Positions 1-22,130 of a DNA stretch of 22,130 bases are shown one piece after another (the first letter of the stretch is position 1; every line of letters starts with the position of its first letter). The stretch covers positions 1-22,130 of the IMG/VR virus record IMGVR_UViG_3300050821_003624. One strand, written 5' to 3'. A program made the translations under genes and the position numbers. Source of the stretch: a virus. The notes beneath the pieces are model-generated. The model did not search any database and had not been told where the DNA came from. It was given only the letters and a program-made list of their open reading frames with translations.

Positions 1-610
1 CACCATCTTGCGAAGCTCCCGTACTTCCCCATCCTGTCGGTGGAACTGTATGCGTATGCGCCGCACTTGTATGCGTATGATTCGCCATTGTGTGCGTATG
101 GTTGGCAAGACCATGCGTATGCGGATTAACCGTATGACTATGCGCCAAAATAACGGAGGTATTAAAAGGCGTGTTTCCTCCAGTCCCTCCACCCGCTCCA
201 TTAACAACACGAAGCGCTTTGTCGTTCTGAGTCGTAACTTGAGTCCAACCGGTTGGAGCGGCAGCTTGGTAGAAAACCATCACGGTCCCCGATGGAATAA
301 CAGGCGTTGACGTATTTAGAGTCGTTAGATTTATTGGCGGCTCCTGATACCAAAGCGAATTCCCAGTTATGTCCGCCAAGACGAAACGTATTCTTTCAAT
401 TTCACCGGCGAGCGAAGTAGGGCGAGAAGTCACCCCACCAGGATAGGGATCGGTCTGCGTACCCATGATCGTGTCATTCTGAGAATAGCTATCCATTCCG
501 GCAGGAATAAAATTCGTTCCAATGTTTAAAAATTCATTATTCCATAGTGACGCAGCAATAATCTGACCTGGAATTACAACGATCAAAGGAATGGTAAATT
601 GTGCGCCCAT
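1..610 (-). CDS. Tail fibre/receptor-binding protein with HxH repeats (C-terminus missing)
   Basis: The gene starts at 610 with AGGAG nine bases upstream and stays open to the window edge (203 codons), so the C-terminus is missing. Residues 1-95 form an N-terminal domain of the kind seen in many phage fibres (motifs SLAGEIERIRF and ITGNSLWYQ). Residues 106-123 carry PSGTVMVFYQAAAPTGWT, the collar-like motif that precedes fibre tips. Residues 157-187 hold five H-x-H motifs at exactly 7-residue steps (H157, 164, 171, 178, 185). In the T4 gp37 tip such motifs from three chains bind iron in an elongated needle; the same trimeric metal-binding tip is inferred here. It is the last visible gene of the virion block. 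Confidence 0.88.
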   Translation of the reverse strand, partial: MGAQFTIPLIVVIPGQIIAASLWNNEFLNIGTNFIPAGMDSYSQNDTIMGTQTDPYPGGVTSRPTSLAGEIERIRFVLADITGNSLWYQEPPINLTTLNTSTPVIPSGTVMVFYQAAAPTGWTQVTTQNDKALRVVNGAGGGTGGNTPFNTSVILAHSHTVNPHTHGLANHTHTMANHTHTSAAHTHTVPPTGWGSTGASQDG

Positions 611-1024: not shown

Positions 1025-2556
1025 GCCGCTATCCTTACGCCCTGCTCTTTGTAGGCAATAATAACTTCCGACAAAAAGAAGTCTTCATTTAGTCCATTGT
1101 GGTCAATTTCCATCTGTAAAACTTTACCGTATGACTTAACATCGAAAGGCGAATCCGCTAGGAGATCGCCAGCAAATACAGAGTTGTCAAATGTTGCGTT
1201 GTCAAAAGTTGCACCAGATGCAGTTATTGTCGTGCTTATCATTGGCAATGCAATATTGTTTATCGATATAAAAATCGTTAGAGTTATATTTGTTGCCGAA
1301 CGAATCCTTAAAATTCCCTTCGGGAAGAATTTATGCATCAAAGGATTATTGAATTCCCACCGCTTCCATTTTATGACTGAGAGATAGGGGTTGTTGCTAT
1401 CGTTGCGCTGTGAACCTTCAAGCTCCCAAATATTCCCATTGTAATCCCCTGTTCGTACTCGGAAATCACTTGGTCCTTTACGGTAACTCCATGAGTAAGA
1501 TGCTGAATAACCGGACGCATAAACATTGTTATTGTGGATTGCCCAAATTTTATGTGGCTCTCTATCTATAAATTGAACAAGGGCCGTATTTGTATTTGAT
1601 CCTGATATCTGAATGAACCATTTAACGCACCGAAGTTTTTTGTCATATGCACAATGCCAGTTTTCAATATTACCAAAGGTTGAATTCTCGCGTAGATACC
1701 GATCGATTTGAGCGGGACGAGTTAAAGAAGCTCGACGATAATTCCCTGTTTGGAAAACTCCATTAAGAGAATAAATCGTTAAGTCTTCCGCCATGATATA
1801 GATATCATTATCAGCTTGAGTGACGAGGCGCCAATGTGCGGCGCCGCCTTCCCAGATAGCTTTCTCATAACCCCAAAGAGTTGGATCTACATTCGTGTCA
1901 TCGATAATGAAGGTTTCGGTTTTGCTTGCTACAAATAAGCGTTGACCAAATTCCCACGCTGCGACCAAACCACCAACGCTATAAACTGGAATTACGGTTA
2001 CGTCTGCATCCGCAAAGTCGGATCCGTTGTTATTCTTGGAAGCGTAAACTGCATATTTCGTAATCGCCCAATTACGGAAATTCGCTCCGCTTGGATGGAA
2101 AATGATCTGGAAAGGATTTCCTTTAATCGCCCAATCAGAAGCGGGAGTTACATTCGTAGCACTCCCAGAACCCGTCCACATTTTTGGTGTGGTTGATCCG
2201 TCGGCTATATAGAGCGTGTCCGCTAATTGACTGAAATGAAAGAAGTTGCTTACGGCCATTCCCGTGGCAATTACATTTGAATCACTATTGAAATAAACAC
2301 TTCCGTTATTCTTGGCGTAAATCTGGAATTGATTCCCGGTTGTTTGCCTGAAATCGTAACCACCCATGACACGATTTGTGACGGAAGGCGTGAATAGAAT
2401 AGATGATCCTCCACGTTTCTCAATTCCCATATTGTGAAGGTTGAAATTAACGGAAGGATCGATTAAAGCGGTATCCGGGGTTAACTCGAAGTTCCGGTTG
2501 AAATCAAAACCGGCTTCGGTCCCTGGAATCCTTAATTCATTTACTTTAAGTCCCAT
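1021..2556 (-). CDS. Putative tail nozzle-like structural protein
   Basis: A 511-residue, beta-rich protein without membrane segments. The region near residues 45-80 (IEKRGGSSILF, then GGYDFRQ) and the later run LFVASKTETFIIDD followed by DIYIMAEDLTIYSLNG resemble the repeated blades of podovirus nozzle proteins (P22 gp10 / T7 gp12 type), which extend the tail below the adaptor ring. Its place downstream of the adaptor and before the fibre fits. The assignment rests on pattern resemblance and gene order rather than on one diagnostic motif; a fibre-associated structural protein is the alternative. Confidence 0.65.
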   Translation of the reverse strand: MGLKVNELRIPGTEAGFDFNRNFELTPDTALIDPSVNFNLHNMGIEKRGGSSILFTPSVTNRVMGGYDFRQTTGNQFQIYAKNNGSVYFNSDSNVIATGMAVSNFFHFSQLADTLYIADGSTTPKMWTGSGSATNVTPASDWAIKGNPFQIIFHPSGANFRNWAITKYAVYASKNNNGSDFADADVTVIPVYSVGGLVAAWEFGQRLFVASKTETFIIDDTNVDPTLWGYEKAIWEGGAAHWRLVTQADNDIYIMAEDLTIYSLNGVFQTGNYRRASLTRPAQIDRYLRENSTFGNIENWHCAYDKKLRCVKWFIQISGSNTNTALVQFIDREPHKIWAIHNNNVYASGYSASYSWSYRKGPSDFRVRTGDYNGNIWELEGSQRNDSNNPYLSVIKWKRWEFNNPLMHKFFPKGILRIRSATNITLTIFISINNIALPMISTTITASGATFDNATFDNSVFAGDLLADSPFDVKSYGKVLQMEIDHNGLNEDFFLSEVIIAYKEQGVRIAA

Positions 2557-2559
2557 AGC

Positions 2560-2859
2560 TTAATCCGTACACGGAACAACGGGATCTTCTCTAACCCATG
2601 CGGGTGGTACCGTTGTTTGAAATTCGTTAACCCATACAGATGAAACGGAAGTCGTTGAATTCCATGTAACTACAGCCCCTGTTTCCAAAACCCAACAGGT
2701 TTGATTGGATGCTGGAGGCATAGCAGTAAGAATCCCCGCATAAACATCAGATGTTTGTTGACGATCCGGTTGCAAGATAACGCCTTTGGGAAAAGGTTTC
2801 GGCATGATCCCGGGGATCATCCAGACTGATTGACGTTTTTGGACTGTATCTATACTCAA
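2560..2859 (-). CDS. Small virion-block protein, unknown
   Basis: A 99-residue protein that I do not recognise. It is rich in Trp, Pro, Thr and Val, has two cysteines (one near the C-terminus, VVPCTD), and shows no membrane segment or signal peptide; the second half reads like beta strands. The start overlaps the preceding stop by four bases and only three bases separate its stop from the nozzle-like gene, so it belongs to the virion operon. A small structural or fibre-attachment role is inferred from position only. Confidence 0.75.
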   Translation of the reverse strand: MSIDTVQKRQSVWMIPGIMPKPFPKGVILQPDRQQTSDVYAGILTAMPPASNQTCWVLETGAVVTWNSTTSVSSVWVNEFQTTVPPAWVREDPVVPCTD

Positions 2860-3629
2860 CTGAAATTATCCTTCGTGAAAGTAGTTCCGTTATCAGATTG
2901 AGGAGCAGTGGCAATCACGGCGCCTGACGCGTTGTAAATCTTTTCGGTTGTGGCATCTGAAGTCCGCTTATTGCGAAGTGCCATTAAGAGAAACATCATT
3001 GCTGTTTTAAGCGTTGGCGTAGATGAAGGAACGCCAACCAATTCTGGGATGGCATCGCTTCCAACCGATGCGTCAACCTGACTTTTGATTGTAGACGCAG
3101 CAGTTGAACCAATATCATTAACGATTCCAATCGTTACGCCGGATTGATTGTTACTTAGGTTTACCGTATCCGTATTTCGATTGAATCCTGAAATACTTCC
3201 TGTAGGAAGTTTGTTAAAGATCGCTTGAACATCCGCAAGAATGCTCCCGGAAGTCGGCGAACTTATCACGGTATTCAAAGCTGTATTTATCTGAGTTAAA
3301 ACATCATTAGTTGAAAGCGGCGTTATTTCGTTGGTTCCATCCCAGAATATTTGGCTTTGATATACGATCTGATCGCCTAAAGCGGGAGAACCGCCGGCTC
3401 TCTGATAGATCGCATAAGTATATTTACCGGGACCAATCGAAGATGGGAAAGCGACTTTATAATAACCCGTGCTTGTTTGTTCCGTTAGCGTGATTGCATA
3501 CGTCGCATAGTTCCCAGAAGTAAAGGCTTCAAAAGCTGTTCCATTCCATAGTTGGCCCGATTTATCACGCACATTTGCGTAAAGATTAAATCCGGTTTGT
3601 ACTAGAAATGCTTCGATAAGTGCTGACAT
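2856..3629 (-). CDS. Putative tail/virion structural protein
   Basis: A 257-residue protein. Residues 8-75 form a compact beta domain (FNLYANVRDKSGQLWNG, then STGYYKVAFPSSIGPGKYTY) of a type common in phage baseplate and fibre-associated proteins. The middle (about 105-175) is Ser/Thr/Asn-rich and repetitive, like a fibre shaft or linker, and the C-terminal 60 residues contain a helix (TLKTAMMFLLMALRNKR) and a short beta tail (EKIYNASGAVIATAP). There is no signal peptide. It sits between the signal-peptide fibre-like protein and a small protein with a four-base overlap. Structural role likely; exact part unknown. Confidence 0.7.
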   Translation of the reverse strand: MSALIEAFLVQTGFNLYANVRDKSGQLWNGTAFEAFTSGNYATYAITLTEQTSTGYYKVAFPSSIGPGKYTYAIYQRAGGSPALGDQIVYQSQIFWDGTNEITPLSTNDVLTQINTALNTVISSPTSGSILADVQAIFNKLPTGSISGFNRNTDTVNLSNNQSGVTIGIVNDIGSTAASTIKSQVDASVGSDAIPELVGVPSSTPTLKTAMMFLLMALRNKRTSDATTEKIYNASGAVIATAPQSDNGTTFTKDNFS

Positions 3630-3632
3630 AAT

Positions 3633-4658
3633 TTAGCTCGCCGTTACCGTTGTGGTGCCCAAATTCGAGTTGACCGACCTATAGACGTAGTAATTCTCGG
3701 TGAAACCGGAGGCGTTTGTAATACTCAAAGTTTGAGGAGGATTGAATCCACCGGAGAATCCACCGACGGTAAAAGTTGCGGTTCCAAGGCGCGTCGGGTA
3801 AGCATAGACGATATATTGAGTTGCGCTAGGCGTAACGGTGAATGTATTGGCGACCGCGTTTGTTAAGTCTGTTCCAGCGAGACTTGTCACGTCAGTGCTA
3901 GTATAGACGCCAGATTGAGCTGAAACACCCCAGAACCGATCGTTATTGAAATTATGTGTGATTGAAGTAGAAGCGCTACCAGCGGCACCCGCTGCATTAA
4001 GCGTAAAAGTGACAGCCCCCGCAACCCCTGGATAATTTACATTTGATGTTGTCGCTGTTGGCCCCTGGAAACTATTGGTCATGGTGAGACTTGTGCCACC
4101 GGAAACCGTTCCACTTGTAGCCGGACCATTCCCATAAGAAGCGGTGAAGGTTATATTCCCGGCTGTTTTCCAAACACCGGTTCCAATTTCAAAAACACTA
4201 GGAAGACTGTCGCTGAAAGACGTGATCGAAAAAGCGAAGTTGGTTCCTTGAGCGGCCCAAACTCCTTTCGTTCCGTTGTAAAGCCAAGCATAATTTATAA
4301 GAGCGGTACTCGTATCAACCTGAATAACGTTTATATTCGAAACCCCATTCGGACCTTGAACAGCGGTAAAAGTAAAGCTGCTAAAGTTAATCTTCGAAGT
4401 CGGGCTTGAAACCGTAACACCACCGATCGAAACATTAAGAGAAGAACTTCCTCCGCCACCGGTTGCTGCTGTGGTCTGAATTGTTCCATCATTAAATTTA
4501 AGATTTGTCGTCTGCAAATTGGTAATGGTTCCACTTGAAACGTAGAACGTAGCCCCTTGCTGTAGAACGTTTTGATTCTGAATAAATGATCCGCCGGGAG
4601 GACCGGCGTAAGCCACTCCCGCTAATCCGATTAGAATAATTCCTAAATACTTTCTCAC
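3633..4658 (-). CDS. Fibre-like protein with N-terminal signal peptide
   Basis: A 341-residue protein. Residues 1-18 (MRK, hydrophobic YLGIILIGLAGV, then AYA before Gly19) are a textbook signal peptide with a signal peptidase I site; there is no lipobox cysteine. The mature part begins with shaft-like sequence (GATFYVSSGTITNLQTTNLK) and the FNDGTIQTTAA motif common in phage fibres, then a glycine-rich hinge (residues 67-70) and a Ser/Thr/Asn/Gly-rich beta region to the end. The start overlaps the adaptor stop by four bases. An exported signal is unusual for a virion protein: it may be displayed on or secreted from the host, or the hydrophobic stretch may anchor it in the particle. Confidence 0.75.
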   Translation of the reverse strand: MRKYLGIILIGLAGVAYAGPPGGSFIQNQNVLQQGATFYVSSGTITNLQTTNLKFNDGTIQTTAATGGGGSSSLNVSIGGVTVSSPTSKINFSSFTFTAVQGPNGVSNINVIQVDTSTALINYAWLYNGTKGVWAAQGTNFAFSITSFSDSLPSVFEIGTGVWKTAGNITFTASYGNGPATSGTVSGGTSLTMTNSFQGPTATTSNVNYPGVAGAVTFTLNAAGAAGSASTSITHNFNNDRFWGVSAQSGVYTSTDVTSLAGTDLTNAVANTFTVTPSATQYIVYAYPTRLGTATFTVGGFSGGFNPPQTLSITNASGFTENYYVYRSVNSNLGTTTVTAS

Positions 4659-5539
4659 CAGTAGTCCGTTACCAAGTCCGTTATATTTGAAATGTCAGAA
4701 CCATAGTTTTCTCTAAAGATTAAATCCTGGAGGAAACGCTTATACTTTCCTTGTTCATCTGCAACGCGATCATCATCTTCCACTTGAAGCTTTTTCATCT
4801 TGATGCCCTGAACAAACATATTACGCCAACGCCTAAGAAGAGTCGAAAAGAGAGCGCTTGCCATATCAATCTGGGTTATATCCGCATAATATCGTAGACG
4901 ACCACCATATGTAACATCGGGTGGCGTGTTAAATATGAAATAACCCTGATTGACGTCTCCAATCGGGTAAAGATAACGCGGCCTAAGTGGTTCAATCAAT
5001 TTTGTTTGCCGTTCCCATGAAAAAACAGGACGCGTTTCGACAGGATATTCAATATCGACAATCATGTAGGTACTTCCGCCAATAGGCGCAGTTGTCCAAT
5101 TTGGGACCATTGAAGCAACTTTGGTTATGCTGTTATAAGCCACGATCTGAGAATAACTACCGGTTCCAACCCCTGTCATAATCAAAATCTCTTTTCCGAT
5201 AACATTGGTTCCAGACATGTCATTAGAAGCAAGTGTAATTGAATTGATTGAACCAGATTGAGCTATTCCTTGATCGGTTCCGTAGAGAATCGTTAATTCA
5301 ATATCACTCGAATAATCGGAAGGATAAGCAAAACGAGATTGACCAATTGGAATAACGGTATAAGACGTTACTTGAAGAACTTTCGGCTTTTTACCAAGCT
5401 GCCAAATATCATTTTTTATTTCTTCCATCCATTCCGTTGAAGCGCGTGTAACCAAAGAAGCGGAAGGATTAGTTTCTCCAGCTTGATAGAGTCCTTCTAA
5501 GACAAGAGTGTTTACCGTGGGGTTGCTTGGAATTGACAT
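4655..5539 (-). CDS. Putative head-tail adaptor (Gp4/gp11-like)
   Basis: A 294-residue protein. The N-terminus (VNTLVLEGLYQAGE) and the C-terminal half (RLRYYADITQIDMA, then a long amphipathic helix LLRRWRNMFVQGIKMKKL) follow the pattern of podovirus adaptors (P22 gp4, T7 gp11), which join the portal ring to the nozzle. It is longer than those, with an extra Ser/Thr/Gly-rich beta insert around residues 75-155. The start overlaps the upstream glycosyltransferase by 28 bases. The position before the nozzle supports the call; no full motif set could be tested. Confidence 0.65.
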   Translation of the reverse strand: MSIPSNPTVNTLVLEGLYQAGETNPSASLVTRASTEWMEEIKNDIWQLGKKPKVLQVTSYTVIPIGQSRFAYPSDYSSDIELTILYGTDQGIAQSGSINSITLASNDMSGTNVIGKEILIMTGVGTGSYSQIVAYNSITKVASMVPNWTTAPIGGSTYMIVDIEYPVETRPVFSWERQTKLIEPLRPRYLYPIGDVNQGYFIFNTPPDVTYGGRLRYYADITQIDMASALFSTLLRRWRNMFVQGIKMKKLQVEDDDRVADEQGKYKRFLQDLIFRENYGSDISNITDLVTDYW

Positions 5540-6666
5540 AATCCCTCATAGGCTTTAATCCATTGTTTGTATTGCGTGTTAATATCAAAATGATCCTTAA
5601 CGATTTGACGCTCTTTTTCGCCAATAGACTGACGCAAATTCGAATCGTTAATTAACATCTCCAAAGCTTCAATCCATCCTTCTTCTCTATTTTCCTCTAT
5701 AAAAATACCGGCTTCCCCATTGCTTAAATCTGCCATCTCTTTATAAGGGGATATATAGGAAACAACGCATGGAACTTGAATAGCAGAGAATTCAATTAGT
5801 TTGATTGGACTTTTTGAATTATTGAAGGGAGTTTGTTTTAAAGGAATGACACCTATATCGATATCCAAAGCGGCAAGACGATAGGGATGAGCGGCCATTT
5901 CTACCCATTCATGAAATTCAACTTGTCCTGATCTATAATCATTTTCAAATGTAATCGGTTTAAAACCAATCATGACTATTTTTACGTTTGGATATTTAGA
6001 GCCGATCTTTTTTAAAACGTTTCTAATAAGTAGCAAATCTTCCCAGTGAGAATTCCCGCCATACCATGCGATTCGTATTTCTTTTGGATTAGGACGTACA
6101 ATGTTTATTTTGTTCCATTGATTTAAATCAATACAATTCGGAAGAATTGAAACATTATTGTTGTACTCACGAAAAACATTAGCCAAGGCTTCCGTTGTTA
6201 CAGTCACCATATCGGCACGAGAAACAGATTGTTTAAATTCTTCGATGGCAAGATTATTTTTATCCAAATCTATATTTACACCATGTTTCCATTCGTGAAT
6301 TAACTTCCCTTCATGCATGATCTTTAATTCTTTAGTACCAAAATCAACATAATGATTTGAAAGAGGCGAAACATTGAAAACGTCGTCATCATGATCGATA
6401 ACAATTTTCGCTTTCAATCCAACTTCACGAACAAAACTTTTAATCTTTTCTATGAATGATTTTGATCCTAAGCGCTGCAAAAGATAAATATCGGAAGAAA
6501 CAGTTTCCCAAAATTTGGCCGATCTTTCAGATACTTCCTGCAAAAGTGTTCCCATCCAAATCTGAGATGTTTTTATTTCTTTTTTGTCTTCTGCTTTAAG
6601 GAGAGGAAGAGTTGCGCGGTAGAAATCTTGCGCTCCATCACCTTGTCTAAAAATTCCCACCTTCAT
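5512..6666 (-). CDS. GT4-type glycosyltransferase (GT-B fold)
   Basis: A 384-residue cytoplasmic enzyme expected to transfer a sugar from a nucleotide-sugar donor. The N-terminal domain is MKVGIFRQGDGAQDFYR, with DHDDDVF at residues 91-97. The C-terminal nucleotide-binding domain starts near residue 195 (EIRIAWYGG) and carries the family signature DIGVIPL followed by SKSPIKLIEFSA (residues 284-295; E292 matches the donor-binding acidic residue). The start overlaps the upstream GT-A enzyme by four bases (ATGA), so the pair is translationally coupled. Both lie inside the virion operon, between the capsid and adaptor genes. Donor and acceptor cannot be told; a virion protein or host surface glycan is likely. 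Confidence 0.85.
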   Translation of the reverse strand: MKVGIFRQGDGAQDFYRATLPLLKAEDKKEIKTSQIWMGTLLQEVSERSAKFWETVSSDIYLLQRLGSKSFIEKIKSFVREVGLKAKIVIDHDDDVFNVSPLSNHYVDFGTKELKIMHEGKLIHEWKHGVNIDLDKNNLAIEEFKQSVSRADMVTVTTEALANVFREYNNNVSILPNCIDLNQWNKINIVRPNPKEIRIAWYGGNSHWEDLLLIRNVLKKIGSKYPNVKIVMIGFKPITFENDYRSGQVEFHEWVEMAAHPYRLAALDIDIGVIPLKQTPFNNSKSPIKLIEFSAIQVPCVVSYISPYKEMADLSNGEAGIFIEENREEGWIEALEMLINDSNLRQSIGEKERQIVKDHFDINTQYKQWIKAYEGLCQFQATPR

Positions 6667-7313
6667 AGCATTGATCCATATAGCAATCTGAAATTTGATT
6701 CAAAATCAACACCAAGATCATAAAGTTCAGCAAATGCAGCAACCGACACAACACTTGGAATTATCTTATAAGCAAAATTATCCGCCATCCGTTTGGCGAA
6801 TATAAAATCAGATACCGGATTAATTTCTAGCCAAGGTTTTGGTAATTTCACAAGACTTGGGAAATGGAAAAGTATCTTGCTGATATGGCATTGCGTAATA
6901 GAATGACCGATTTTCCAAGATGAAAAATCGTAATGCTTATCACGTGATACACCTATGATTTGACCCACGACCATGGAAACATTTTGACTTGCTTCCAAAA
7001 GATGTTTAAGACCCCATGGGAGTAAGCAATCATCATCAGCATCATTAAAAATCCAATCACACCAACCATAATTTTCCAAGCAATATTTGATCGGGATTGA
7101 TGGTTCTCCCTGTGGGACATTCTTAAGGATTCGAACTTTTTCTTTTTCTTGCGTCGTAAGTTGATCCATCAATTCCGGATAATCATCATCTGGAATTGAA
7201 ATAGTAACGCGAGATTTTACGTCTGAATTCAAAGCGGTATGAATCTGGCAAATCAAATTTGCAGTTCGATTCTTTAGAGTCGGAATAAAAACATCGACGT
7301 CGAAAGTTTTCAT
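6663..7313 (-). CDS. GT2-like glycosyltransferase (GT-A fold)
   Basis: A 216-residue protein that starts with VDVFIPTLKNRTANL, the first strand and loop of a GT-A fold, and has DADDD at residues 91-95, the metal-binding DxD region that holds the nucleotide-sugar. It is short for the family (usually about 230-300 residues) and has no membrane segment. Four-base overlaps link it to the small gene before and the GT4 enzyme after. The two enzymes probably act one after the other on the same acceptor; this is inferred from coupling, not seen. A late-block location argues against a role in early takeover. Confidence 0.8.
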   Translation of the reverse strand: MKTFDVDVFIPTLKNRTANLICQIHTALNSDVKSRVTISIPDDDYPELMDQLTTQEKEKVRILKNVPQGEPSIPIKYCLENYGWCDWIFNDADDDCLLPWGLKHLLEASQNVSMVVGQIIGVSRDKHYDFSSWKIGHSITQCHISKILFHFPSLVKLPKPWLEINPVSDFIFAKRMADNFAYKIIPSVVSVAAFAELYDLGVDFESNFRLLYGSML

Positions 7314-7627
7314 ACGCCGCTATTTACTGTCCAAAATTTCTTACCTTCTTCTGTATACAAAAGCTTATAAATAGTTTTTTCTCTTAGTTCTTTATCGCCA
7401 ACCAAAATTTCAGGATATTCTTTACACCACTTTTTCCAAGTTAAAGGAGAAATCCTGGCTACCATTCTCATGCTTCTTTCTTTATTCCATCCATCTTGTT
7501 CATCTTTTTTCGAATGGTAATTTGCTTCTAAAATTGGATCGATATTCATCGTATGAGCGAGAATGAGTTCCCCATTCTTTTCTGATATATCTGTTCCTTC
7601 TTTTAATCTGTTTGATCGAACAATCAT
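7310..7627 (-). CDS. Small conserved-looking phage protein downstream of capsid
   Basis: A 105-residue protein, largely helical and charged, with a C-terminal half (LTWKKWCKEYPEIL, then GDKELREKTIYKLLYTEEGK) that resembles small proteins found next to phage capsid genes. No catalytic or membrane feature is visible. The ATG has no clear Shine-Dalgarno sequence: the stem-loop at 7644-7673 ends only 16 bases upstream, so expression may depend on processing or on the hairpin. The stop overlaps the GT-A gene by four bases. Function unknown. Confidence 0.75.
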   Translation of the reverse strand: MIVRSNRLKEGTDISEKNGELILAHTMNIDPILEANYHSKKDEQDGWNKERSMRMVARISPLTWKKWCKEYPEILVGDKELREKTIYKLLYTEEGKKFWTVNSGV

Positions 7628-7643
7628 AAATTTGTGGGAAGTG

Positions 7644-7673
7644 CCCCGGTAGAACCCATGCTTTCTACCGGGG
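7644..7673 (-). terminator. Stem-loop after the capsid gene (attenuator or weak terminator)
   Basis: CCCCGGTAGAA at 7644-7654 pairs perfectly with TTCTACCGGGG at 7663-7673, an 11-bp stem with an 8-base loop, 21 bases downstream of the capsid stop. On the minus strand it is followed by CACTTCCCACAAATTT, not by a run of T. It may therefore be a partial terminator, an RNA-processing site or a 3'-end stabiliser that lets the capsid mRNA outnumber the genes below it. Confidence 0.65.
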
Positions 7674-7693
7674 TTAATCTTCCTTGATTCCTT

Positions 7694-8587
7694 TTAAGTC
7701 AGTTGCGTTACAACGCCAGAAGCTTTTTCATTCAAGCTTTCGAGTGTAAGTTCCGCAACGATCTGGAATTTACGCGCGTCACCTGTGCGAGCAAGCTCAT
7801 GAAGCAGAACCGGCCTAAGCCATGCTTTCCGCCAATAGCTCATATCCAAGTTGAAGATTTGATTCGCTTCGTTCGCATTCATAACATGCGATAACACAGT
7901 CTTTAACGTACCAAAACTCGATTGATAGATATCAACCGCGTTAACAACTTTCGCCGCTTCAGCTGAAATAAACCGCGTGTTCTGAGTGAATCCAGCAATT
8001 GCAATCTTCTGATTCCCACCGGTCAAGATAACATCCGGATCGCCGCCAGCAGCCCAAATAAGCGCCAGATTCGCATCGAGAATCGTTGACGTCAAAGGAC
8101 GATTCGCCGAAGCGCTGGACGTATTCGTCGCAATAAATCCCGAAATACCTTTCGACTGTCGAGCCGTTCCAGCAGCACCAGTAACAGCAGCAGAATTAAT
8201 TACAAGCATATATTCAATATCGGTCGCAAGTTCTTTAGTTAACTTCTGAACTTGATAACCGATTTCAGAAGCGCGTCCTGCTTTACGAACGATCTCTTGA
8301 GTTCCAGAGATGAGGAAGTTCTTGGTCAGGATTTGCGTGTTATTATTGAGACGAGTCGTCGCACCTACCGCAACACCAGCGCTATCATTCCCTTCAATTC
8401 CTGCATTAGCAGAAGGCGTCACCAAAGAATCAGTCTGCCACTCATGCAACGTCGCCATCGCGCGAACACTTTCCGTCATAGACAAAACAGGCGTCTTGGT
8501 CGGCGAGATATTGACGATAATATCGATCAAATCCTCGCGATTGCCTATCGCCTGATAGGTCTGGAATGTATTTGTTGGAACACTCAT
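7694..8587 (-). CDS. Major capsid protein, SU10-like (DUF5309) family
   Basis: A 297-residue shell subunit. The N-terminus (TFQTYQAIGNREDLIDII, then NISPTKTPVLSM) and the following HEWQTDSL, GIEGNDSAG and LISGTQEIVRKAGRASE motifs are diagnostic of the DUF5309/SU10-like capsid family, which has the HK97 fold. Length matches the family. The start is set by AAGGAG nine bases upstream of the ATG at 8587. It follows the scaffold gene after 22 bases and is itself followed by a stable stem-loop, as expected for the most strongly expressed late gene. Confidence 0.95.
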   Translation of the reverse strand: MSVPTNTFQTYQAIGNREDLIDIIVNISPTKTPVLSMTESVRAMATLHEWQTDSLVTPSANAGIEGNDSAGVAVGATTRLNNNTQILTKNFLISGTQEIVRKAGRASEIGYQVQKLTKELATDIEYMLVINSAAVTGAAGTARQSKGISGFIATNTSSASANRPLTSTILDANLALIWAAGGDPDVILTGGNQKIAIAGFTQNTRFISAEAAKVVNAVDIYQSSFGTLKTVLSHVMNANEANQIFNLDMSYWRKAWLRPVLLHELARTGDARKFQIVAELTLESLNEKASGVVTQLT

Positions 8588-8609
8588 TTTCTATTTCTCC
8601 TTAAGATTA

Positions 8610-9782
8610 TTAAGCGTCCGGGATAATCCCTTTCTGGCGGAGAACGTCATTCCATGCCTCTTTGTCATCGCCCAACGTTGAAGCTCGTCGAAATGCTGTG
8701 CGATACATTTGGTTTGGATCGTCATTAAGTCCGCTTGAAGGTCCCGAAGCACTATCGATTCTTGTTTCCGGTACTTTTTGTTCCACTTTCGGCATTTGAC
8801 GTTGAACAACTGGAGGAGGAGGCGCCGCTTGTCTAATAGCCTGGGGCTGATTAAGGTCTTGCGCTTTTAGCTGGAAATAGAGCGATTTAGCGCCCGTTGG
8901 CGTATCATAAAATTGCACTTCCTGTGGGTCTCGAAGTCCTAAAATATGGCTTTCCATTTTCGGAAGATAATCGAGAAAATCAGGGAACCCCTGCATTCTC
9001 AATTCATTCGCCACTCTTTGCCGGTTGGATTCATACATCGCCGGACGAGTACCTTCGACCACCTGGCGCAATTGCTGCTCTAAAGATTGGATTCGCTCCA
9101 TGAGAGGATTAAATTCTTGAGGGATTTGGTTGACAACTGGTTGCGGTGCATTCCATGTTTCACGTGGAACGTCGCGAGTTTGCTGTTGCTGTTGTTGTCT
9201 CAATTCCTGTAATTGTCGTCTCTCTTCCGCTAATCGTCTGCGCTCTTCTCCAACTCTATCCGCTGCTTCCGTCAAATGCTTTTTCAATTGATACTGACCC
9301 AATACTTCTTTGAAAGTCGGCGTTTCTTCTCGACCATCGATCTTAGCTCGGACCTTTCGGTCTCCGAACGTATCAACATCGAGCATGTCTTCACCTTCAA
9401 TAGATTTTTCCGGCTCTTTAGGAGGTATGGCCTCAGATACAACCTTGGCCAATTCCGATTTGTCGAGTCGTTCTTCGTCTGTTTCTTTCTGTGTTTTTGG
9501 AGCGGGAGTTTTGATTGTGTCCCGCACATCTACTTTTGGAGGCGCCAAGGGGTCTTGAATAATTGGCGCTTCCTCAATGGCTTTCTCCGCATCTTGCTTC
9601 TCTTGGATTAAGTCTCCAAAAAGTCGTTCCGTCGTCGACATAACATCTTCGCCGTCCGTCTGTCGCGATACTTCAACGACATTCATATTTGCCGCTTCTG
9701 GACGTGGCGTTTCTTCTGTTACCTCTGTTCGGATACCATTGTTTCCACTTCTATTTGCTCTCGGATACACACCTTTAGGCAT
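8610..9782 (-). CDS. Capsid scaffolding protein (putative)
   Basis: A 390-residue, highly charged protein located between portal and capsid genes, the usual place for a scaffold. The first 160 residues are acidic and look disordered (runs of Glu, Asp, Pro, Lys). Residues about 165-205 form a strong coiled coil (KHLTEAADRVGEERRRLAEE and a Gln-rich continuation), followed by another helix (FNPLMERIQSLEQQLRQV). The C-terminus is short and basic/helical (AFRRASTLGDDKEAWNDVL), where scaffolds normally contact the capsid. No protease motif is visible. The function is inferred from position, composition and coiled coil. Confidence 0.75.
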   Translation of the reverse strand: MPKGVYPRANRSGNNGIRTEVTEETPRPEAANMNVVEVSRQTDGEDVMSTTERLFGDLIQEKQDAEKAIEEAPIIQDPLAPPKVDVRDTIKTPAPKTQKETDEERLDKSELAKVVSEAIPPKEPEKSIEGEDMLDVDTFGDRKVRAKIDGREETPTFKEVLGQYQLKKHLTEAADRVGEERRRLAEERRQLQELRQQQQQQTRDVPRETWNAPQPVVNQIPQEFNPLMERIQSLEQQLRQVVEGTRPAMYESNRQRVANELRMQGFPDFLDYLPKMESHILGLRDPQEVQFYDTPTGAKSLYFQLKAQDLNQPQAIRQAAPPPPVVQRQMPKVEQKVPETRIDSASGPSSGLNDDPNQMYRTAFRRASTLGDDKEAWNDVLRQKGIIPDA

Positions 9783-10107
9783 GATTCAGCTCCTCCTTAT
9801 TGTCGAGGGTCGCGTTTTGTAGTTCTGCCAGAGATGCCCTCGCGGCGTCTCCCTGGGAAATCAAAAAATCGAGTTGACGTTTTGGCTTTTCTACCGCCAG
9901 GAACATTTGCTGCGCTTTCATGCGCATTTCTTCATTTTGAGCATTTCGCAATACTTGTATAGCTTCATCAAATATCGCTCCAAAAATATACTGGTTCAAC
10001 CATTTCCAATCTTCTCCATCTTTTACCCGCTGGGCTCGTTCCCCATGAAACGATTGGTTGATGAGAAGTTGATAATCTTTGTCTGGGAATTCGATATTTT
10101 GATCCAT
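9775..10107 (-). CDS. Small helical protein between portal and scaffold
   Basis: A 110-residue, mostly helical protein with a Gln/Glu/Ala-rich C-terminal half (MRMKAQQMFLAVEKPKRQLD). The ATG follows directly after the portal stop (TAA-ATG), and its stop overlaps the scaffold start by eight bases, so it is co-translated with both. Such a gene at this place often makes a small head-assembly factor, but I recognise no family and see no motif that decides the role. Confidence 0.75.
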   Translation of the reverse strand: MDQNIEFPDKDYQLLINQSFHGERAQRVKDGEDWKWLNQYIFGAIFDEAIQVLRNAQNEEMRMKAQQMFLAVEKPKRQLDFLISQGDAARASLAELQNATLDNKEELNHA

Positions 10108-12018
10108 TTAAGCCCCCATACTCGCGGCCGATGGATTCATATTTGAAACCTGACTTGAAGCGTCGGTTAATTGTGCTGGAGCGGAAGGTTGACCGGCAAC
10201 CGGACCATTGGGCGGAGGTGGTTGCATGGCCGGCAAAAGGAATTGATCCATTTTCATAATGCCGGAAAGAGGGAGGAGTTCTTCGACAATTTTCATGGGA
10301 TCGCCGAAACGAGCATTCTCTTTTGCGAGAACGCCGATTTGTAGAAGTTGACCGGTGGCTTGGTTGGCTTGGTTAATCCGGTCCATTATGAGGAGAAGGC
10401 GATTAATTTGTGCCTGTTTGTTAATTCCAATGTTGACATCAAGATCGAAATCGCCTTGTAAGACATCTCGAACGGGAACGCTTTTATCCCAAATAAGCGG
10501 ACCCATATATTTCCCGAGAACGTCCTTAATATATTCTTCGGTCTCATACGCTTGCTCAAGACGAAGAAGATAACGGAAAGCGGGAAGAAAAGCGGTATAG
10601 GCAATGTTCTTAATGACTAGGGCAATTTTCTTATTCGCATTGGTAAGTTGATTCGTACTTTCCGTCGCTGATTCGCTATTGGTATCAGCGCCCTGCAAGA
10701 GCGGAGGAAGTCCCGTCTCGTTATAATCATTGTCAGTACGGGCTTGCGTTCGTGCAAGGATGGCCGCTGAATTATTGGTGGGTATTTCGCCTACCGCTTC
10801 ATCCAGAGGGCCATCACCCAGGACATAGCCACCAATCCGTCGATTGGTTAACGACATCAAATCGACATTCGCGTCCCGATTGATATACATCGTTCGGCGA
10901 AGATCACGTGCAATCGCTTCCCGCTCCTGATTACGTTGCGCATTGGTTTCCATCTGCAATGCTTCTGTGATCTGCGGATAAGATTTCCCTTCGAGGCGGT
11001 GCGGTTCTGGATAAGCCTCGCCCAATATAATAGGAGGGCGATTGTGCTCGAAGGGAGAAAACCGATAAGGCAAATCATTTTCAACCCATCCGCGACCAAC
11101 AGCGGAAGATTGAAGCATGTCGCCTAAAAGAATGAATGAACCGGATTTAAGTTTCCCATCTTTCCCCGGCAGAAAATCCCAGTGCTCGAAAACCCAAATC
11201 TCATCCTCATCGCGAACCATGTGTTCATCATTAAAAAGAGTTTGATAGTCCTGTCGGCGTTGATACTTAACAACGTCTGAAAGTTGATCTTCGAGTTGAA
11301 CTTCCGGAGTTACATCAATATTTTTGTACCCGAGAAGTCTTAGTTCAGCACGCGTCCGTTTATAGCGGTGAACCATCGGGTATTTATAGTAGGTCTTCCA
11401 TGTCGCACGTTTGGAGAAGAAAACATCTTCGGGTGGAACACATTCAAGTCTAGGTTCGAAATACTTTATGCGTTTAACTTTTTCATCGACATAGGTCTGA
11501 TAAGGAGTCCCATCCTCTAACGTTTCTGTTTTTAGTCGAGATTCAGTGACACTCTCCGTTTCAATCTGCGGATAAACCTTAAAACAACAAATCATATTAC
11601 GAATAGCGTTTAGAGCCCCTTCGTATGCTTCCTTGTAGAATTCAATCGGATGACTATTCAAGCGATGATTCATAATCGCTTTCACCGCATGAATATGTTC
11701 AAGAGGAATTGATTTGTGCGTTTTTATGTCAACGATTTCATCCGGATCAAAAAAAATAGATTCGAGAACATCAACGAGGATTCGTTGTGTGTTAACAAAT
11801 GTTTTAGGAATGAATAGACGAGGAATGCCAAGCATGTCTGAGAATTTCCGTTCTTGCGTCGAGAATTTCCCGTCATACATGTCCATGTCTTTTCTCATTC
11901 GCTCAAAGAAAAGCTGATGACCGGTACGTGCAGAATCAAAGACCATCCTACCCTGGGTTAGAAGGAAATCGTCGGTGATTTGATCGGCTCTGGTTATGCG
12001 AAGTGGATCGCCGCTCAT
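10108..12018 (-). CDS. Portal protein
   Basis: A 636-residue protein directly downstream of TerL (four-base overlap), the standard portal position, with a length in the range of podovirus portals. The N-terminus is helical and charged (FFERMRKDMDMYDGKF); a central region has the bulky aromatic and acidic pattern typical of the clip and wing (ECVPPEDVFFSKRATW; DEIWVFEHWDFLPG). Residues about 350-470 form long helices with ITEALQMETNAQRNQEREAI and TNSESATESTNQLTNANKK, like the stem and crown. The C-terminus is Pro/Gln/Ser-rich and likely flexible. It forms the ring through which TerL pumps DNA. Confidence 0.85.
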   Translation of the reverse strand: MSGDPLRITRADQITDDFLLTQGRMVFDSARTGHQLFFERMRKDMDMYDGKFSTQERKFSDMLGIPRLFIPKTFVNTQRILVDVLESIFFDPDEIVDIKTHKSIPLEHIHAVKAIMNHRLNSHPIEFYKEAYEGALNAIRNMICCFKVYPQIETESVTESRLKTETLEDGTPYQTYVDEKVKRIKYFEPRLECVPPEDVFFSKRATWKTYYKYPMVHRYKRTRAELRLLGYKNIDVTPEVQLEDQLSDVVKYQRRQDYQTLFNDEHMVRDEDEIWVFEHWDFLPGKDGKLKSGSFILLGDMLQSSAVGRGWVENDLPYRFSPFEHNRPPIILGEAYPEPHRLEGKSYPQITEALQMETNAQRNQEREAIARDLRRTMYINRDANVDLMSLTNRRIGGYVLGDGPLDEAVGEIPTNNSAAILARTQARTDNDYNETGLPPLLQGADTNSESATESTNQLTNANKKIALVIKNIAYTAFLPAFRYLLRLEQAYETEEYIKDVLGKYMGPLIWDKSVPVRDVLQGDFDLDVNIGINKQAQINRLLLIMDRINQANQATGQLLQIGVLAKENARFGDPMKIVEELLPLSGIMKMDQFLLPAMQPPPPNGPVAGQPSAPAQLTDASSQVSNMNPSAASMGA

Positions 12019-13706
12019 ACGAGGATCGCCTCCTCATCTGGAATAAATTGGGCCTGCGTATCTTCAACAACAGAAGGACGCCAATTGAAACGGCGTTGAA
12101 GAATATATCGCACACACGCATGATGATCGTGAACGCCTTCGGCTATTTTGTCTTTTTGACCTTTCTCTTCTTCATTGGTCCATGTTTCACGTTGAAGAGT
12201 TTTAAATGTTTTTATGAGAAGTTTATTCTCCGGTCGATCCATAATAAAGAATCGAGGCTTTTTAACCCGTTCGTTTATTTTCAATCGTTCTTTTATATTC
12301 GAAATTCCAGCCGCGATTGAACCTTGGAACTTCTCAGCTTTGGTCAAATTCTTTAAGGCATATCGGCCGCGCCTCAAAAGTTCAAACACATTCACGTTGT
12401 CATAAATCGTTAGAGAAGAATCAGAAGATGGATCGACTATCTTTTTAACCACGCGCCGATCCTGGCAAAGATCAGTCAAATCTCGTTTCAATTCATCGAC
12501 GGTAACAGATCGCTTGTAGCATGTATCGACATAGAAATTATCTTCACGATCCACAAAGCAGAGGACCGCGCAGGAATCCTTGACCATATGGGGATCGATC
12601 CCGAGGAAACCCATGTATATAGAATAGGGGCACGCTTCCCCATGCGAATCTCCCACGGAGCCACAGTTACAAATGGTATCGAAGGCAGGAATAACGTGGA
12701 CGGAGGATTGAAACAATTTCCCGTACACAAGGCCGGAGAGAGAAACGAATTCACCAAGCAACCGCATCTTAAGTTCTTCATAGGTTTCCATCTCATTCAA
12801 GATTTCTCTCAAAACCTTTAAATTGGCAAATGGATTACAAACGCTGGCGATTTGAAACCATTCGACATTATTACCAATCTCATCGGTCCCACGCGTAAAC
12901 AAATCATAAGTCCACGAAAGTCCTTTCGTCGGTGTCATGCAGAAGAGGACATCCAAGGAACTCGCCGTCGTGAAACGCATCAGATTTTCTTTGTAAACAT
13001 CATGCTGCGGTTCCTCGTCAAAAACGAGCATATGACGAGGCGGGCCTTGGAACGTCCCCAAATCCTGCTTATTCGACATGAACTCAATGGTTCCACACAG
13101 TTGCTTTGTCGTTGGATCAAAGAGACGAAGAATTTGCTCACCCGCCGCATACGATTTCTCCCAACTTCCATCGAGCAAATATTCACGCGGCGCCCACTTG
13201 CGGTAAGTGGGGATCAAATTCCTCAATATCCCGTTCTGATAGTCTTCCCCAATCACCCGAACATGCTGAGGCCCTTTGCGAATCATGCGATGCGCCGGAT
13301 ACTTATAAGCGTCCGGCTTCGCTGGATCAAAACAATAAGGAAGGGCGCCGGTCGACTTGATATAGGCTTCGATGCAACCCGTTGTCGTTTTAGACGACTG
13401 ATTGCCCCCACTAGCCCCACGAATAGATGCATTCGACAAATGAACATCGATGGCGCCATGCAACTTAGGTGGGATATCGTCATCCTTAAGATAATTCTTA
13501 AGGAACGCACGATTTTCGGCGGGAATATTGCCGGTTACCGGCTGGTAGTACCAAAAAGGATTGGACGCCTTCGCTTGCTCGATGAAATCGAGATAGGCTT
13601 TCTTCTGTTCTAAAAGCTCGCCGCGAAGGAATGCTTTCTCTTCGGGAAGCAGAAGCTTCGGATTCTTTTTTAAAAGCTTCTTTGCTTTTAATGACAATTC
13701 GTTCAA
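12015..13706 (-). CDS. terL: Terminase large subunit (ATPase/nuclease)
   Basis: A 563-residue packaging motor. Walker A is GASGGNQSSKTT (residues 97-108), Walker B is HMLVFDEEP (D230, E231), and the coupling motif is TPTKG (258-262). The RNase H-like nuclease has D371 (GIDP), D425 (IVDPSSDS) and D527 (VHDHHA). The start is a TTG with AAGGA seven bases upstream; no ATG lies near it. A Cys/His-rich loop (Cys346, Cys348, His355, Cys359) sits just before the nuclease domain, possibly a small metal site. It is separated from the likely small subunit by about 2.7 kb. Confidence 0.95.
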   Translation of the reverse strand: MNELSLKAKKLLKKNPKLLLPEEKAFLRGELLEQKKAYLDFIEQAKASNPFWYYQPVTGNIPAENRAFLKNYLKDDDIPPKLHGAIDVHLSNASIRGASGGNQSSKTTTGCIEAYIKSTGALPYCFDPAKPDAYKYPAHRMIRKGPQHVRVIGEDYQNGILRNLIPTYRKWAPREYLLDGSWEKSYAAGEQILRLFDPTTKQLCGTIEFMSNKQDLGTFQGPPRHMLVFDEEPQHDVYKENLMRFTTASSLDVLFCMTPTKGLSWTYDLFTRGTDEIGNNVEWFQIASVCNPFANLKVLREILNEMETYEELKMRLLGEFVSLSGLVYGKLFQSSVHVIPAFDTICNCGSVGDSHGEACPYSIYMGFLGIDPHMVKDSCAVLCFVDREDNFYVDTCYKRSVTVDELKRDLTDLCQDRRVVKKIVDPSSDSSLTIYDNVNVFELLRRGRYALKNLTKAEKFQGSIAAGISNIKERLKINERVKKPRFFIMDRPENKLLIKTFKTLQRETWTNEEEKGQKDKIAEGVHDHHACVRYILQRRFNWRPSVVEDTQAQFIPDEEAILV

Positions 13707-17454: not shown

Positions 17455-17483
17455 TTGACATGCTTAGGTATGTGTCCTATATT
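17455..17483 (+). promoter_or_regulatory. Rightward sigma70-type promoter
   Basis: TTGACA (17455-17460), a 17-base spacer and TATATT (17478-17483) make a near-consensus promoter. The first gene follows at 17518 with AAAGGAG upstream, so the leader is only about 28 bases. The strength suggests early expression by the host polymerase. Confidence 0.8.
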
Positions 17484-18054: not shown

Positions 18055-18185
18055 TGACGTGGCATGAGATTCTTTATCTTCGTAGGTGTGATCAGATGCG
18101 GAAATTCTACGGGACATCAAATGATTGGATTCAGTCAATGATCTGGGAGAAATGGTGTTTTTTATCGGCGGGGAATCCATTATGA
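18054..18185 (+). CDS. 43-residue aromatic-rich protein
   Basis: The ATG at 18054 shares its A with the previous TAA (TAATG), so translation is coupled; the ribosome site (GGGATG) is weak. The 43-residue product (MTWHEILYLRRCDQMRKFYG, then a Trp-rich helix) has four tryptophans. It ends in ATGA with the next gene. Function unknown. Confidence 0.55.
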   Translation: MTWHEILYLRRCDQMRKFYGTSNDWIQSMIWEKWCFLSAGNPL

Positions 18186-18250
18186 CGGAGGCGATCTACT
18201 TTTCTATTATCGTGCTAGCCTGTGTTTATATTTTGTTTGTAAAGGAATGA
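18182..18250 (+). CDS. 22-residue one-helix membrane peptide
   Basis: Starts in an ATGA overlap, with GGGGA seven bases upstream. The product is almost entirely one membrane helix (IYFSIIVLACVYILFV) ending Lys-Glu. It resembles other very small phage membrane peptides only in shape. Coupling on the upstream side and the composition are the evidence. Confidence 0.5.
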   Translation: MTEAIYFSIIVLACVYILFVKE

Positions 18251-18253
18251 ATT

Positions 18254-18391
18254 GTGAAAACGTGCGAGAAATGTCAGCGGATGATAAAGACGGGATGTCA
18301 GGTTTGTGGACGTTGGCTTTGTTACAAATGCAAGGGGAAGAAAAAAGATTGTCAGAATTGTGTGAAACTTGAACAATTAGAGGCGGCATGA
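18254..18391 (+). CDS. 45-residue protein with four CxxC pairs
   Basis: A GTG start at 18254 with AAAGGA seven bases upstream. Eight cysteines form four C-x2-C pairs (4/7, 15/18, 23/26, 33/36) in 45 residues, enough to bind two zinc ions, in a RING- or B-box-like spacing; no such family is claimed. The rest is basic (RMIKTG; KGKKKD). It ends in ATGA with the next gene. A compact metal-binding adaptor or nucleic-acid binder is the likely shape. Confidence 0.65.
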   Translation: MKTCEKCQRMIKTGCQVCGRWLCYKCKGKKKDCQNCVKLEQLEAA

Positions 18392-18834
18392 AAGAACCGC
18401 GGCAATTAGACGAGACAGATGTTCTGGCGCCATTTCCTCTCTATTTTACTCCTGAGGGAAAGCCGGCCGAGACTACGGTAACAATCCCCAACCCTGAGAA
18501 TAAAACAGAACTTAAAACATACACGATCGACTGGGATGGCAAGCGCCTTTCCATGCACGAAGAAGGGCCCTGGCCGAGGTTTTGGGGCTGTTTAACCATC
18601 ATTGTGGGCTCTGCCCTGCTTTGGTATGGAATTATCAAAATTGGCCGTTTTTTGTGGACAGCCATTAAAAACACTTTTTTCTTGATTATTTTGTCCGTTT
18701 TGCCTTTAAAAGCCAATATTTCTCCCTCTGGACCCTTTCAACCCGTAAATGATGGGGGGTTGCATGGAACCAATTGCCCGGGCCCTCAAACCCCAATTCC
18801 ACACCTAAAGGAGACCTTAAATGCGAAAGATTAA
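18388..18834 (+). CDS. Two-helix membrane protein (holin-like candidate)
   Basis: A 148-residue protein with GAGG before its ATG. Residues 1-62 are soluble and look like beta structure (PAETTVTIPNPENKTELKTY). Two hydrophobic helices follow: about 65-86 (FWGCLTIIVGSALLWYGIIK) and 89-108 (FLWTAIKNTFFLIILSVLPL), joined by a very short turn. The C-terminal 40 residues are Pro/Gly-rich. The end overlaps the protease gene by 14 bases. The adjacent protease makes a holin or membrane-docking role possible; holins are usually smaller and lack such an N-domain, so this is an inference. Confidence 0.7.
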   Translation: MKEPRQLDETDVLAPFPLYFTPEGKPAETTVTIPNPENKTELKTYTIDWDGKRLSMHEEGPWPRFWGCLTIIVGSALLWYGIIKIGRFLWTAIKNTFFLIILSVLPLKANISPSGPFQPVNDGGLHGTNCPGPQTPIPHLKETLNAKD

Positions 18835-19570
18835 ACGTTACGGCTGGCATCCTGATTTACCCGATCATCGAGATCGTCTTTTTCGGCCTGCTGTGCTTGA
18901 TTCATTGCCACCGGCGGTAGATTTAAGGCCATTGTGTCCCGCGGTTTACGATCAAGGCGAGCTAGGGAGCTGCACGGCTAATGCGATTGCAGGGGCTATT
19001 GAATTCGATCTATTGAAGCAGAATCAGGATTTCAGGCCATCGCGTCTATTCATTTATTACAACGAACGGGTGATTGAAGGCACAATTGATAGCGATAGCG
19101 GAGCGCAATTGAGGGATGGGATCAAGACTGTCGCTCAATATGGGGATTGCCACGAAGAGTTATGGCCTTATGATATCGTCAAATTCGCGGTTAAACCTCT
19201 TCCGGTCTGTTACGACGAAGCTATTAAGTATCAGGCTCTTTCTTACGAATCGCTGGATCAGGACATGGAATCGATGGAGACGTGTTTAGCGTCTGGGTAT
19301 CCATTTGTGTTTGGGTTTAGCGTCTATGATTCATTTGAGAGTCCCGACATGGCAAAAACGGGAGTGCTGGGAATGCCAGGAGAGGATGAGACGCTTCTAG
19401 GGGGTCATGCGGTCATGGCAGTTGGTTATGACCAATCTACCGAAACATTTCTTGTCCGTAATTCATGGGGCCCAAATTGGGGTCAAGCTGGCTATTTCAC
19501 GATTCCCTACGAATATCTGAATGATAGCACGCTCTCCAGTGACTTTTGGACGATTCGGGCCGTTAAATGA
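18821..19570 (+). CDS. Papain-like (C1-type) cysteine protease
   Basis: A 249-residue protein with AAAGGAG before the ATG. The N-terminus YGWHPDLPDHRD is characteristic of microbial C1 peptidases. The active site is complete: Gln45 (oxyanion), Cys51 in ELGSCTANA, His196 in GGHAVMAVGYD and Asn214 in RNSWGPNWG. There is no signal peptide and no long inhibitory propeptide. It lies between a two-helix membrane protein and a 30-residue membrane peptide. It may cut host proteins, or cut cell-wall peptide and so act as an endolysin; the catalytic fold is related to NlpC/P60 and CHAP enzymes. No other lysis enzyme is visible here. Confidence 0.92.
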   Translation: MRKIKRYGWHPDLPDHRDRLFRPAVLDSLPPAVDLRPLCPAVYDQGELGSCTANAIAGAIEFDLLKQNQDFRPSRLFIYYNERVIEGTIDSDSGAQLRDGIKTVAQYGDCHEELWPYDIVKFAVKPLPVCYDEAIKYQALSYESLDQDMESMETCLASGYPFVFGFSVYDSFESPDMAKTGVLGMPGEDETLLGGHAVMAVGYDQSTETFLVRNSWGPNWGQAGYFTIPYEYLNDSTLSSDFWTIRAVK

Positions 19571-19659
19571 TTGGCGTGGATGGCCCTTACTTTCTCACGG
19601 CTTATTTTTGGATAACCACCATTTTCGTTGCTACGATTATTATTTGCTTGAAGAGATAA
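19567..19659 (+). CDS. 30-residue one-helix membrane peptide
   Basis: Starts in an ATGA overlap with the protease stop. The 30 residues are MIGVDGP followed by a membrane helix (YFLTAYFWITTIFVATIIIC) and LKR, so the N-terminus is probably outside. The coupling to the protease suggests that they act together, for example as a small holin or spanin-like helper, which is speculative. Confidence 0.55.
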   Translation: MIGVDGPYFLTAYFWITTIFVATIIICLKR

Positions 19660-19669
19660 TGAAATTTAA

Positions 19670-19864
19670 ATGAATAATTTGACCACAGATGAACTCAAAA
19701 AAATAGAGCAATTGAGAAAAGAACTTTATCCAAAACTTCCGGGCGATAAATTGCCTGAAAGATGGTATGACCATAGGAATGTATTGACGAATGTTCTTTA
19801 TAATCAAGATCTGGATTTTCTCTTTAAATGTCTGGATTTTTTTATTCAACAATTTAAAGCTTGA
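19670..19864 (+). CDS. Small charged protein, unknown
   Basis: A 64-residue frame after the membrane peptide. The first half is a charged helix (TTDELKKIEQLRKELYPKLP), then KLPERWYDHRNV and a hydrophobic end (DLDFLFKCLDFFIQQFKA). There is no good ribosome site; a four-codon frame ends in an ATGA just at its start. The sequence looks protein-like, but translation is only moderately supported. The promoter of the next region begins inside its last codons. Confidence 0.5.
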   Translation: MNNLTTDELKKIEQLRKELYPKLPGDKLPERWYDHRNVLTNVLYNQDLDFLFKCLDFFIQQFKA

Positions 19865-21574: not shown

Positions 21575-21693
21575 ACTGGTTTTTGATTCTTAAATTTGTT
21601 GCGTGTTTTATTACTGGATTTTATATCGCTCATCTTTTTATCGAATTGCGAATACTTTATAAAAAAAATAGGAGGCCACCTTCATGGCATTAA
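21571..21693 (+). CDS. 40-residue one-helix membrane protein
   Basis: A GTG start inside a GTGA overlap, so translation is coupled. The 40 residues start with a membrane helix (WFLILKFVACFITGFYIAHL) and end basic (RILYKKNRRPPSWH). Its last ten codons carry the AGGAGG site of the following gene. Like its neighbour, it may be one of a pair of small membrane proteins; function unknown. Confidence 0.55.
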   Translation: MNWFLILKFVACFITGFYIAHLFIELRILYKKNRRPPSWH

Positions 21694-21998
21694 TAAAAGG
21701 GAATAAAATGAAAAAAGATAGACATGTAATTATACGAACATATTCAGCCGGGGTTTTTGCGGGAACGCTTGAAAGTAGAAACGGAAAGGAAGCGGTCTTA
21801 TCGAAATCTCGACGTATCTGGTATTGGTCTGGGGCTGCGAGCTTATCCCAGTTGGCGATGGAAGGCACTTCCGATCCGGTCAATTGTAAATTTCCTTGCA
21901 TTGTTGATCGCACCGAGTTAACGGAAGTAATTGAAATTATCGATATGACCTCAAAGGCTTATGATTCTGTGATGGCGGTTCCGATATGGGAAAAATAG
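21684..21998 (+). CDS. DUF6948-like phage protein
   Basis: A 104-residue protein with AGGAGG nine bases before the ATG; an in-frame ATG at 21708 with AAGGG is another possible start. The motifs VIIRTYSAGVFAGTLESR, RRIWYWSGAASLSQLAMEGT and NCKFPCIVDRTELTEVIEII match the DUF6948 pattern that I know from many phages. The family has no known function; it is small, globular and soluble. The stop codon's last G is the first base of the terminal G-rich repeat. Confidence 0.85.
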   Translation: MALIKGNKMKKDRHVIIRTYSAGVFAGTLESRNGKEAVLSKSRRIWYWSGAASLSQLAMEGTSDPVNCKFPCIVDRTELTEVIEIIDMTSKAYDSVMAVPIWEK

Positions 21999-22130
21999 GG
22001 TCCGGGGACGGGTCCGGGGACGGGTCCGGGTCCGGGTACGGGTACGGGTCCGGGTACGGGTACGGGTCCGGGTACGGGTCCGGGTCCGGGGACGGGTCCG
22101 GGTCCGGGTACGGGTACGGGTCCGGGTACG
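21998..22130. repeat. GGGNNC hexamer tandem repeat, open at the window end
   Basis: Twenty-two consecutive 6-bp units plus one base: eleven GGGTCC, eight GGGTAC and three GGGGAC. Each unit supplies a GGG run, so the plus strand can form G-quadruplexes. A higher-order pattern is visible: units 4-10 (22016-22057) and 16-22 (22088-22129) are identical, 72 bases apart. It begins exactly at the stop codon of the preceding gene and runs to the window edge. Confidence 0.95.

Follow-up and report, generated by a model that had tools for sequence, protein, structure and literature searches.

Xylellain-type cysteine peptidases, the 'short bacterial C1A' enzymes of the MEROPS classification, are represented structurally by xylellain from Xylella fastidiosa (PDB ID: 3OIS), whose own substrate is not known (PMC12090721). 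Published work already describes separate acquisitions of such peptidases by Mimiviridae and, among the tailed phages, by myo- and siphoviruses (PMC10380794).

The window analyzed here (the whole stretch of DNA, that is, an entire 22,130-base IMG/VR record without end repeats) carries a gene of this kind. Its product, referred to below as the phage papain, resembles xylellain in its fold, its catalytic Cys/His/Asn residues and its oxyanion Gln, and the two proteins align over their full length with about 46% identity. In contrast to xylellain, it is phage-encoded, it is shortened in a loop at about residues 120-130, and the additional N-terminal residues of the 3OIS chain are for the most part missing from it, as residue 2 of the query aligns with chain residue 28. 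The viruses described in PMC10380794 share both the enzyme type and its horizontal gain by dsDNA viruses, but the phages named there are myo- and siphoviruses, whereas the phage of the window is podovirus-like. The 595-kb uncultured megaphage LR756511.1 encodes a homologue that is 55% identical to the phage papain and also has no signal peptide; unlike the window gene, it has no membrane neighbors and is flanked by genes that, judging from the sequence, encode CTP synthase and ribonucleotide reductase. Thermoanaerobacterium phage THSA-485A ('peptidase C1A papain') and Alicyclobacillus phage MMB025 ('endolysin') carry C1 domains too, with 26-33% identity to the phage papain, but the former adjoins a GH25 lysin and the latter is fused to glycoside-hydrolase-like and peptidoglycan-binding domains, neither of which holds for the window.

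The phage papain and its family

The papain ORF (18821..19570, plus strand) is preceded by a strong Shine-Dalgarno sequence (AAAGGAGACCTTAAATG) and encodes a protein of 249 aa that matches the Pfam family Peptidase_C1 (PF00112; E 7e-15, 56.1 bits against a curated cut-off of 20.7), the PHROG family phrog_16701 'peptidase' (E 5e-18) and, over its full length in a phmmer comparison, xylellain 3OIS (E 8e-70). An AlphaFold2 model calculated with 64 homologues reached a mean pLDDT of 94.1 and a pTM of 0.92, and Foldseek returned 3OIS as the top match of this model (TM 0.90, 46% identity). The oxyanion residue Gln45 and the catalytic residues Cys51, His196 and Asn214 are invariant in an alignment of 66 sequences and near-invariant in one of 142 sequences, bearing out the complete C1-type active site that a preliminary description of this DNA had proposed. 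Searches of the protein with Pfam and PHROG elicited only papain-type and related cysteine-peptidase models, and no cell-wall hydrolase domain. Taken together, these data identify the protein as a xylellain-type C1A papain-fold peptidase with intact catalytic residues, and we regard this identity, along with the accessory status of the gene, as very highly probable.

The phage papain is short and consists of a single domain; its N-terminal segment is likewise short, with the catalytic Cys already at residue 51, and a cathepsin-type propeptide is missing. The preliminary description had rightly remarked on the missing signal peptide and long propeptide, yet this appears to be a family-wide property and nothing special to the window protein, since an N-terminal transmembrane segment was found in none of 134 homologues examined. 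The homologues are mostly 250-270 aa long. A Pfam search for an I42 chagasin-like inhibitor returned no match among the window ORFs. Such inhibitor genes adjoin some cellular xylellain-type genes (L029, by annotation; L113, L169, L182, L184 and L186, assigned to the family by eye), and a Priestia plasmid likewise carries a chagasin-like (I42) inhibitor beside a xylellain-type gene.

The distribution of the phage papain and its homologues is patchy. A single-sequence scan for close relatives returned none, while the three-sequence alignment A2 recovered homologues at no fewer than 282 viral loci in IMG/VR and at 533 or more cellular loci, whose gene surroundings are unrelated. Among the matches listed, the cellular homologues belong to archaea, Verrucomicrobia, Chloroflexi, Pseudomonas and others, the best being ~66% identical to the phage papain. 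A homologue occurs in 20 of 50,697 isolate records; the earlier view of C1 proteases as rare in phages thus holds when counted by genome, although the IMG/VR loci and the published cases (PMC10380794) show repeated acquisition of the enzyme. A tree of 130 sequences requires at least nine switches between viruses and cells, only two of which are forced by well-supported branches. Furthermore, no partner gene recurs at 60 viral loci, where no family accounts for more than 4 of the 220 nearest neighbors in Pfam and PHROG tallies that cover the 25 commonest families and may let single matches escape; in phage FLC9, the papain gene is a lone plus-strand gene. These results point to a common and mobile family that phages have repeatedly acquired.

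Flanking reading frames and the plus-strand operon

Terminase, portal, scaffold, capsid, adaptor and tail genes occupy the minus strand of the window, and a block of small ORFs that includes the papain gene lies on the plus strand from ~17.6 kb. The papain operon hence runs divergently from the structural genes and outside the head gene cluster. It is preceded by a sigma-70-like promoter, TTGACA-17-TATATT (17455..17483, plus strand), identified by its match to 11 of 12 consensus positions; this match and the strand of the operon would be in line with early expression. The same operon contains a 22-aa hydrophobic micro-ORF (18182..18250), which shares an ATGA overlap with the preceding ORF, and a 45-aa Cys-rich zinc-finger-like ORF (18254..18391; B-box-like, with an E of 0.0017 below the cut-off), and it ends with a 64-aa ORF without Pfam or PHROG match (19670..19864), all on the plus strand.

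The preliminary description had placed the papain gene between a two-helix membrane protein and a 30-residue membrane peptide, all coupled by overlaps, and this arrangement was confirmed. The upstream plus-strand ORF (18388..18834) encodes 148 aa with two predicted transmembrane helices, starting at residues 65 and 88, and overlaps ORF 18254-18391 by 4 nt and the papain ORF by 14 nt; the downstream one (19567..19659, plus strand), of uncertain coding status, encodes 30 aa with one hydrophobic segment and overlaps the papain stop codon by 4 nt. Neither product matches a Pfam or PHROG family, the helices being assigned by hydropathy. The 30-aa peptide constitutes weak evidence, since its ORF has no clear Shine-Dalgarno sequence and transmembrane-like stretches occur in 29 of the 220 window ORFs of 22-60 aa. 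No homologue of the 148-aa protein was detected in IMG/VR, and 160 papain loci contained no homologue of the 148-aa ORF, of the 30-aa ORF or of any other window protein. With membrane neighbors conserved nowhere that we found, the proposal of a coupled three-gene unit forming a new type of lysis or host-takeover cassette is not upheld.

Relatives of the phage and the ends of the fragment

The left end of the window falls within a tail-cluster gene (1..610, minus strand) with homologues in three related contigs (G001:15508-16452, G009:12615-13496 and G010:9677-10678), leaving a fragment of 22.1 kb. At the right contig end, positions 21998-22130 form a tandem array of GGGTAC/GGGTCC units with an 18-base period, which is a likely reason for the assembly break. 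GC content is alike along the whole window, and tRNA and Rfam searches of it returned no matches. Relatives were sought with the terminase large subunit (12015..13706, minus strand; phrog_2, E 1e-18) and the major capsid protein (7694..8587, minus strand; phrog_1328, E 1e-82) as queries; the portal protein is encoded at 10108..12018 on the same strand (phrog_1216, E 8e-25). Of the eleven relatives recovered by terminase homology, ten are 53-77% identical. G001 (38,221 bases) is probably complete, since it has an exact terminal repeat of 98 bases, and G009 and G010 each measure about 39 kb.

These three relatives share their structural gene order with the window and continue past the tail gene in which the window starts. 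Several kb beyond that gene, G001 and G010 encode an M15_3 peptidase (PF08291; E 3e-13 and 4e-18, respectively) and G009 a DUF5675 protein, and in this region G009 and G010 have in common a small holin-like membrane gene, so labeled from its hydrophobic stretches and without Pfam match. By domain and position, these genes may act in lysis. The matching region of the window phage is unassembled, as the fragment stops within the tail gene on the left and in the tandem repeat on the right. Profile searches of the 22.1-kb window confirmed the earlier remark that it contains no classical endolysin domain, but in a mere fragment this absence carries no information. Given that relatives of the same gene order have a gene of peptidoglycan-hydrolase type beyond the end of the window, truncation is the best explanation for the seemingly missing endolysin.

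Neither the eleven records related by terminase nor another 44 related by capsid contain the papain gene. Although fragments are frequent among these 55 records, several of the capsid-related ones span at least 36 kb, and the long records likewise lack the gene. Conversely, the window capsid protein was found in 0 of 44 papain-bearing contigs tested. The absence from all 55 records suggests that the papain is dispensable in this phage group. As far as the relatives show, the lysis reading is refuted, since the three long ones carry a separate hydrolase-type gene, accompanied in G009 and G010 by a holin-like one, and the membrane neighbors of the papain are not conserved.

Further features of this phage group were observed. 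Between the capsid and adaptor genes (5512-7313, minus strand), the window encodes a glycosyltransferase-like protein (phrog_7162, E 1e-35), retained in all long relatives, and a companion of unknown family. Putative tail-fibre genes (window 3633-4658, minus strand; G001:4830-12813; G010:14104-19716) have signal-peptide-like N termini, such as VRKYLGIILIGLAGVAYA and MKKLLLSLIGLALSSIAFG, which is unusual in tail proteins of phages. In G009 (L015/L022-L023; 23694-26297, minus strand), the terminase large subunit contains an in-frame insertion of ~300 aa in the Walker A region, with ends typical of an intein (NQS/CISGDSLIYDP...ETVSHN/SKTTTG).

Possible roles of the peptidase

Elsewhere, papain genes occur near lysis-type genes. 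In one phage group (L035, L050, L058, L074 and L088), every one of the five members surveyed has an amidase gene no more than 3 kb from the papain, and in L036 the papain lies within 1.4 kb of a DUF5675 gene. Among contigs with both a papain and a lysis-type gene, the two are within 3 kb of each other in 6 of 9 (p 0.0005) in a survey confined to Amidase_2, M15_3 and DUF5675 among endolysin families; five of these six contigs belong to the one related group, and with one representative per group the p value is 0.08. Whenever a surveyed contig has the papain close to lysis-type genes, it stands alongside an amidase or DUF5675. In the amidase group, L036, THSA-485A and MMB025, the papain accompanies a wall hydrolase or DUF5675 and does not replace it; an accessory lysis role in other phages is possible. 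The papain of the five-contig group is also near coiled-coil, single-helix membrane proteins.

The suggestion that the phage papain replaces the endolysin, with its membrane neighbors acting as holin or spanin, draws on the overlapping small membrane ORFs and on a fragment without endolysin domain, but fares poorly against the comparative data, and we judge it very improbable. The window is truncated, and beyond its left end the long relatives carry M15_3 (G001, G010) or DUF5675 (G009) genes and a holin-like gene (G009, G010), that is, past the tail cluster, whereas the phage papain is encoded opposite to the structural genes, lacks an export signal, occurs in no relative and adjoins membrane ORFs without homologues; papains near lysis-type genes elsewhere, moreover, come with an amidase or DUF5675. 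The main rival is instead an accessory lysis or envelope enzyme that would degrade membrane, spanin, S-layer or outer-membrane proteins beside a normal endolysin. The GH25 neighbor in THSA-485A, the MMB025 fusion and the amidase and DUF5675 proximities speak for it, including the count of six in nine contigs; for this count, however, p is 0.08 once each group is represented singly, and the window gene lies on the opposite strand from the structural genes, at a great distance from where a lysis region would be expected, making this role unlikely here. The broader proposition that phage xylellain-type proteases are accessory lysis enzymes cutting envelope or holin/spanin-type membrane proteins, coupled in the window to dedicated partners that place them at the membrane, seems to us decidedly improbable.

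A part in prohead or virion maturation might be considered in view of the fact that no other protease was recognized in the fragment, but no papain match was obtained in at least seven relatives whose capsid proteins are 79-82% identical, among them the probably complete G001, or in any of the other relatives tested, and the gene is located outside the head cluster; we consider this very unlikely. With cellular homologues as close as 66% identity among the matches listed, an assembly error that fused a bacterial gene to phage DNA could also come to mind. The gene is flanked by phage genes, however, with the terminase and structural genes at 611-13706 on one side and 21684-21998, which has homologues in G009 and G010, on the other; this and the similar GC content throughout argue against such a chimera, which we hold to be extremely unlikely.

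On balance, we favor, as a reasonably probable account, a horizontally acquired cytosolic xylellain-type endopeptidase, encoded by an accessory gene and cutting host or rival proteins. Within a podovirus-like phage group, one member would have gained the gene as a moron-type acquisition and would produce the predicted peptidase from an early-type plus-strand operon with a sigma-70-like promoter. Lacking a signal peptide, the enzyme would act in the cytoplasm of the infected cell, where it might cut host proteins, in take-over or counter-defense, or proteins of competing elements; the adjoining membrane ORFs would be unrelated small early-type phage genes. A cytosolic early-type peptidase is the simplest reading because there is no export signal, the gene lies on the strand opposite to the structural genes and the promoter is sigma-70-like. 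The association with wall hydrolases or DUF5675, by proximity or fusion, in the five-contig group, L036, THSA-485A and MMB025 counts against this account, and would fit an envelope role in those phages. The processing of host proteins, which the preliminary description had offered as an option, is our leading proposal, and we see the case for an intracellular role on host or rival proteins as evenly balanced.

With the phage papain, a familiar protease family that has been transferred repeatedly gains a podovirus-like case, and the amidase-linked phage group (L035, L050, L058, L074, L088) is a better place than the window to ask what the enzyme cuts.
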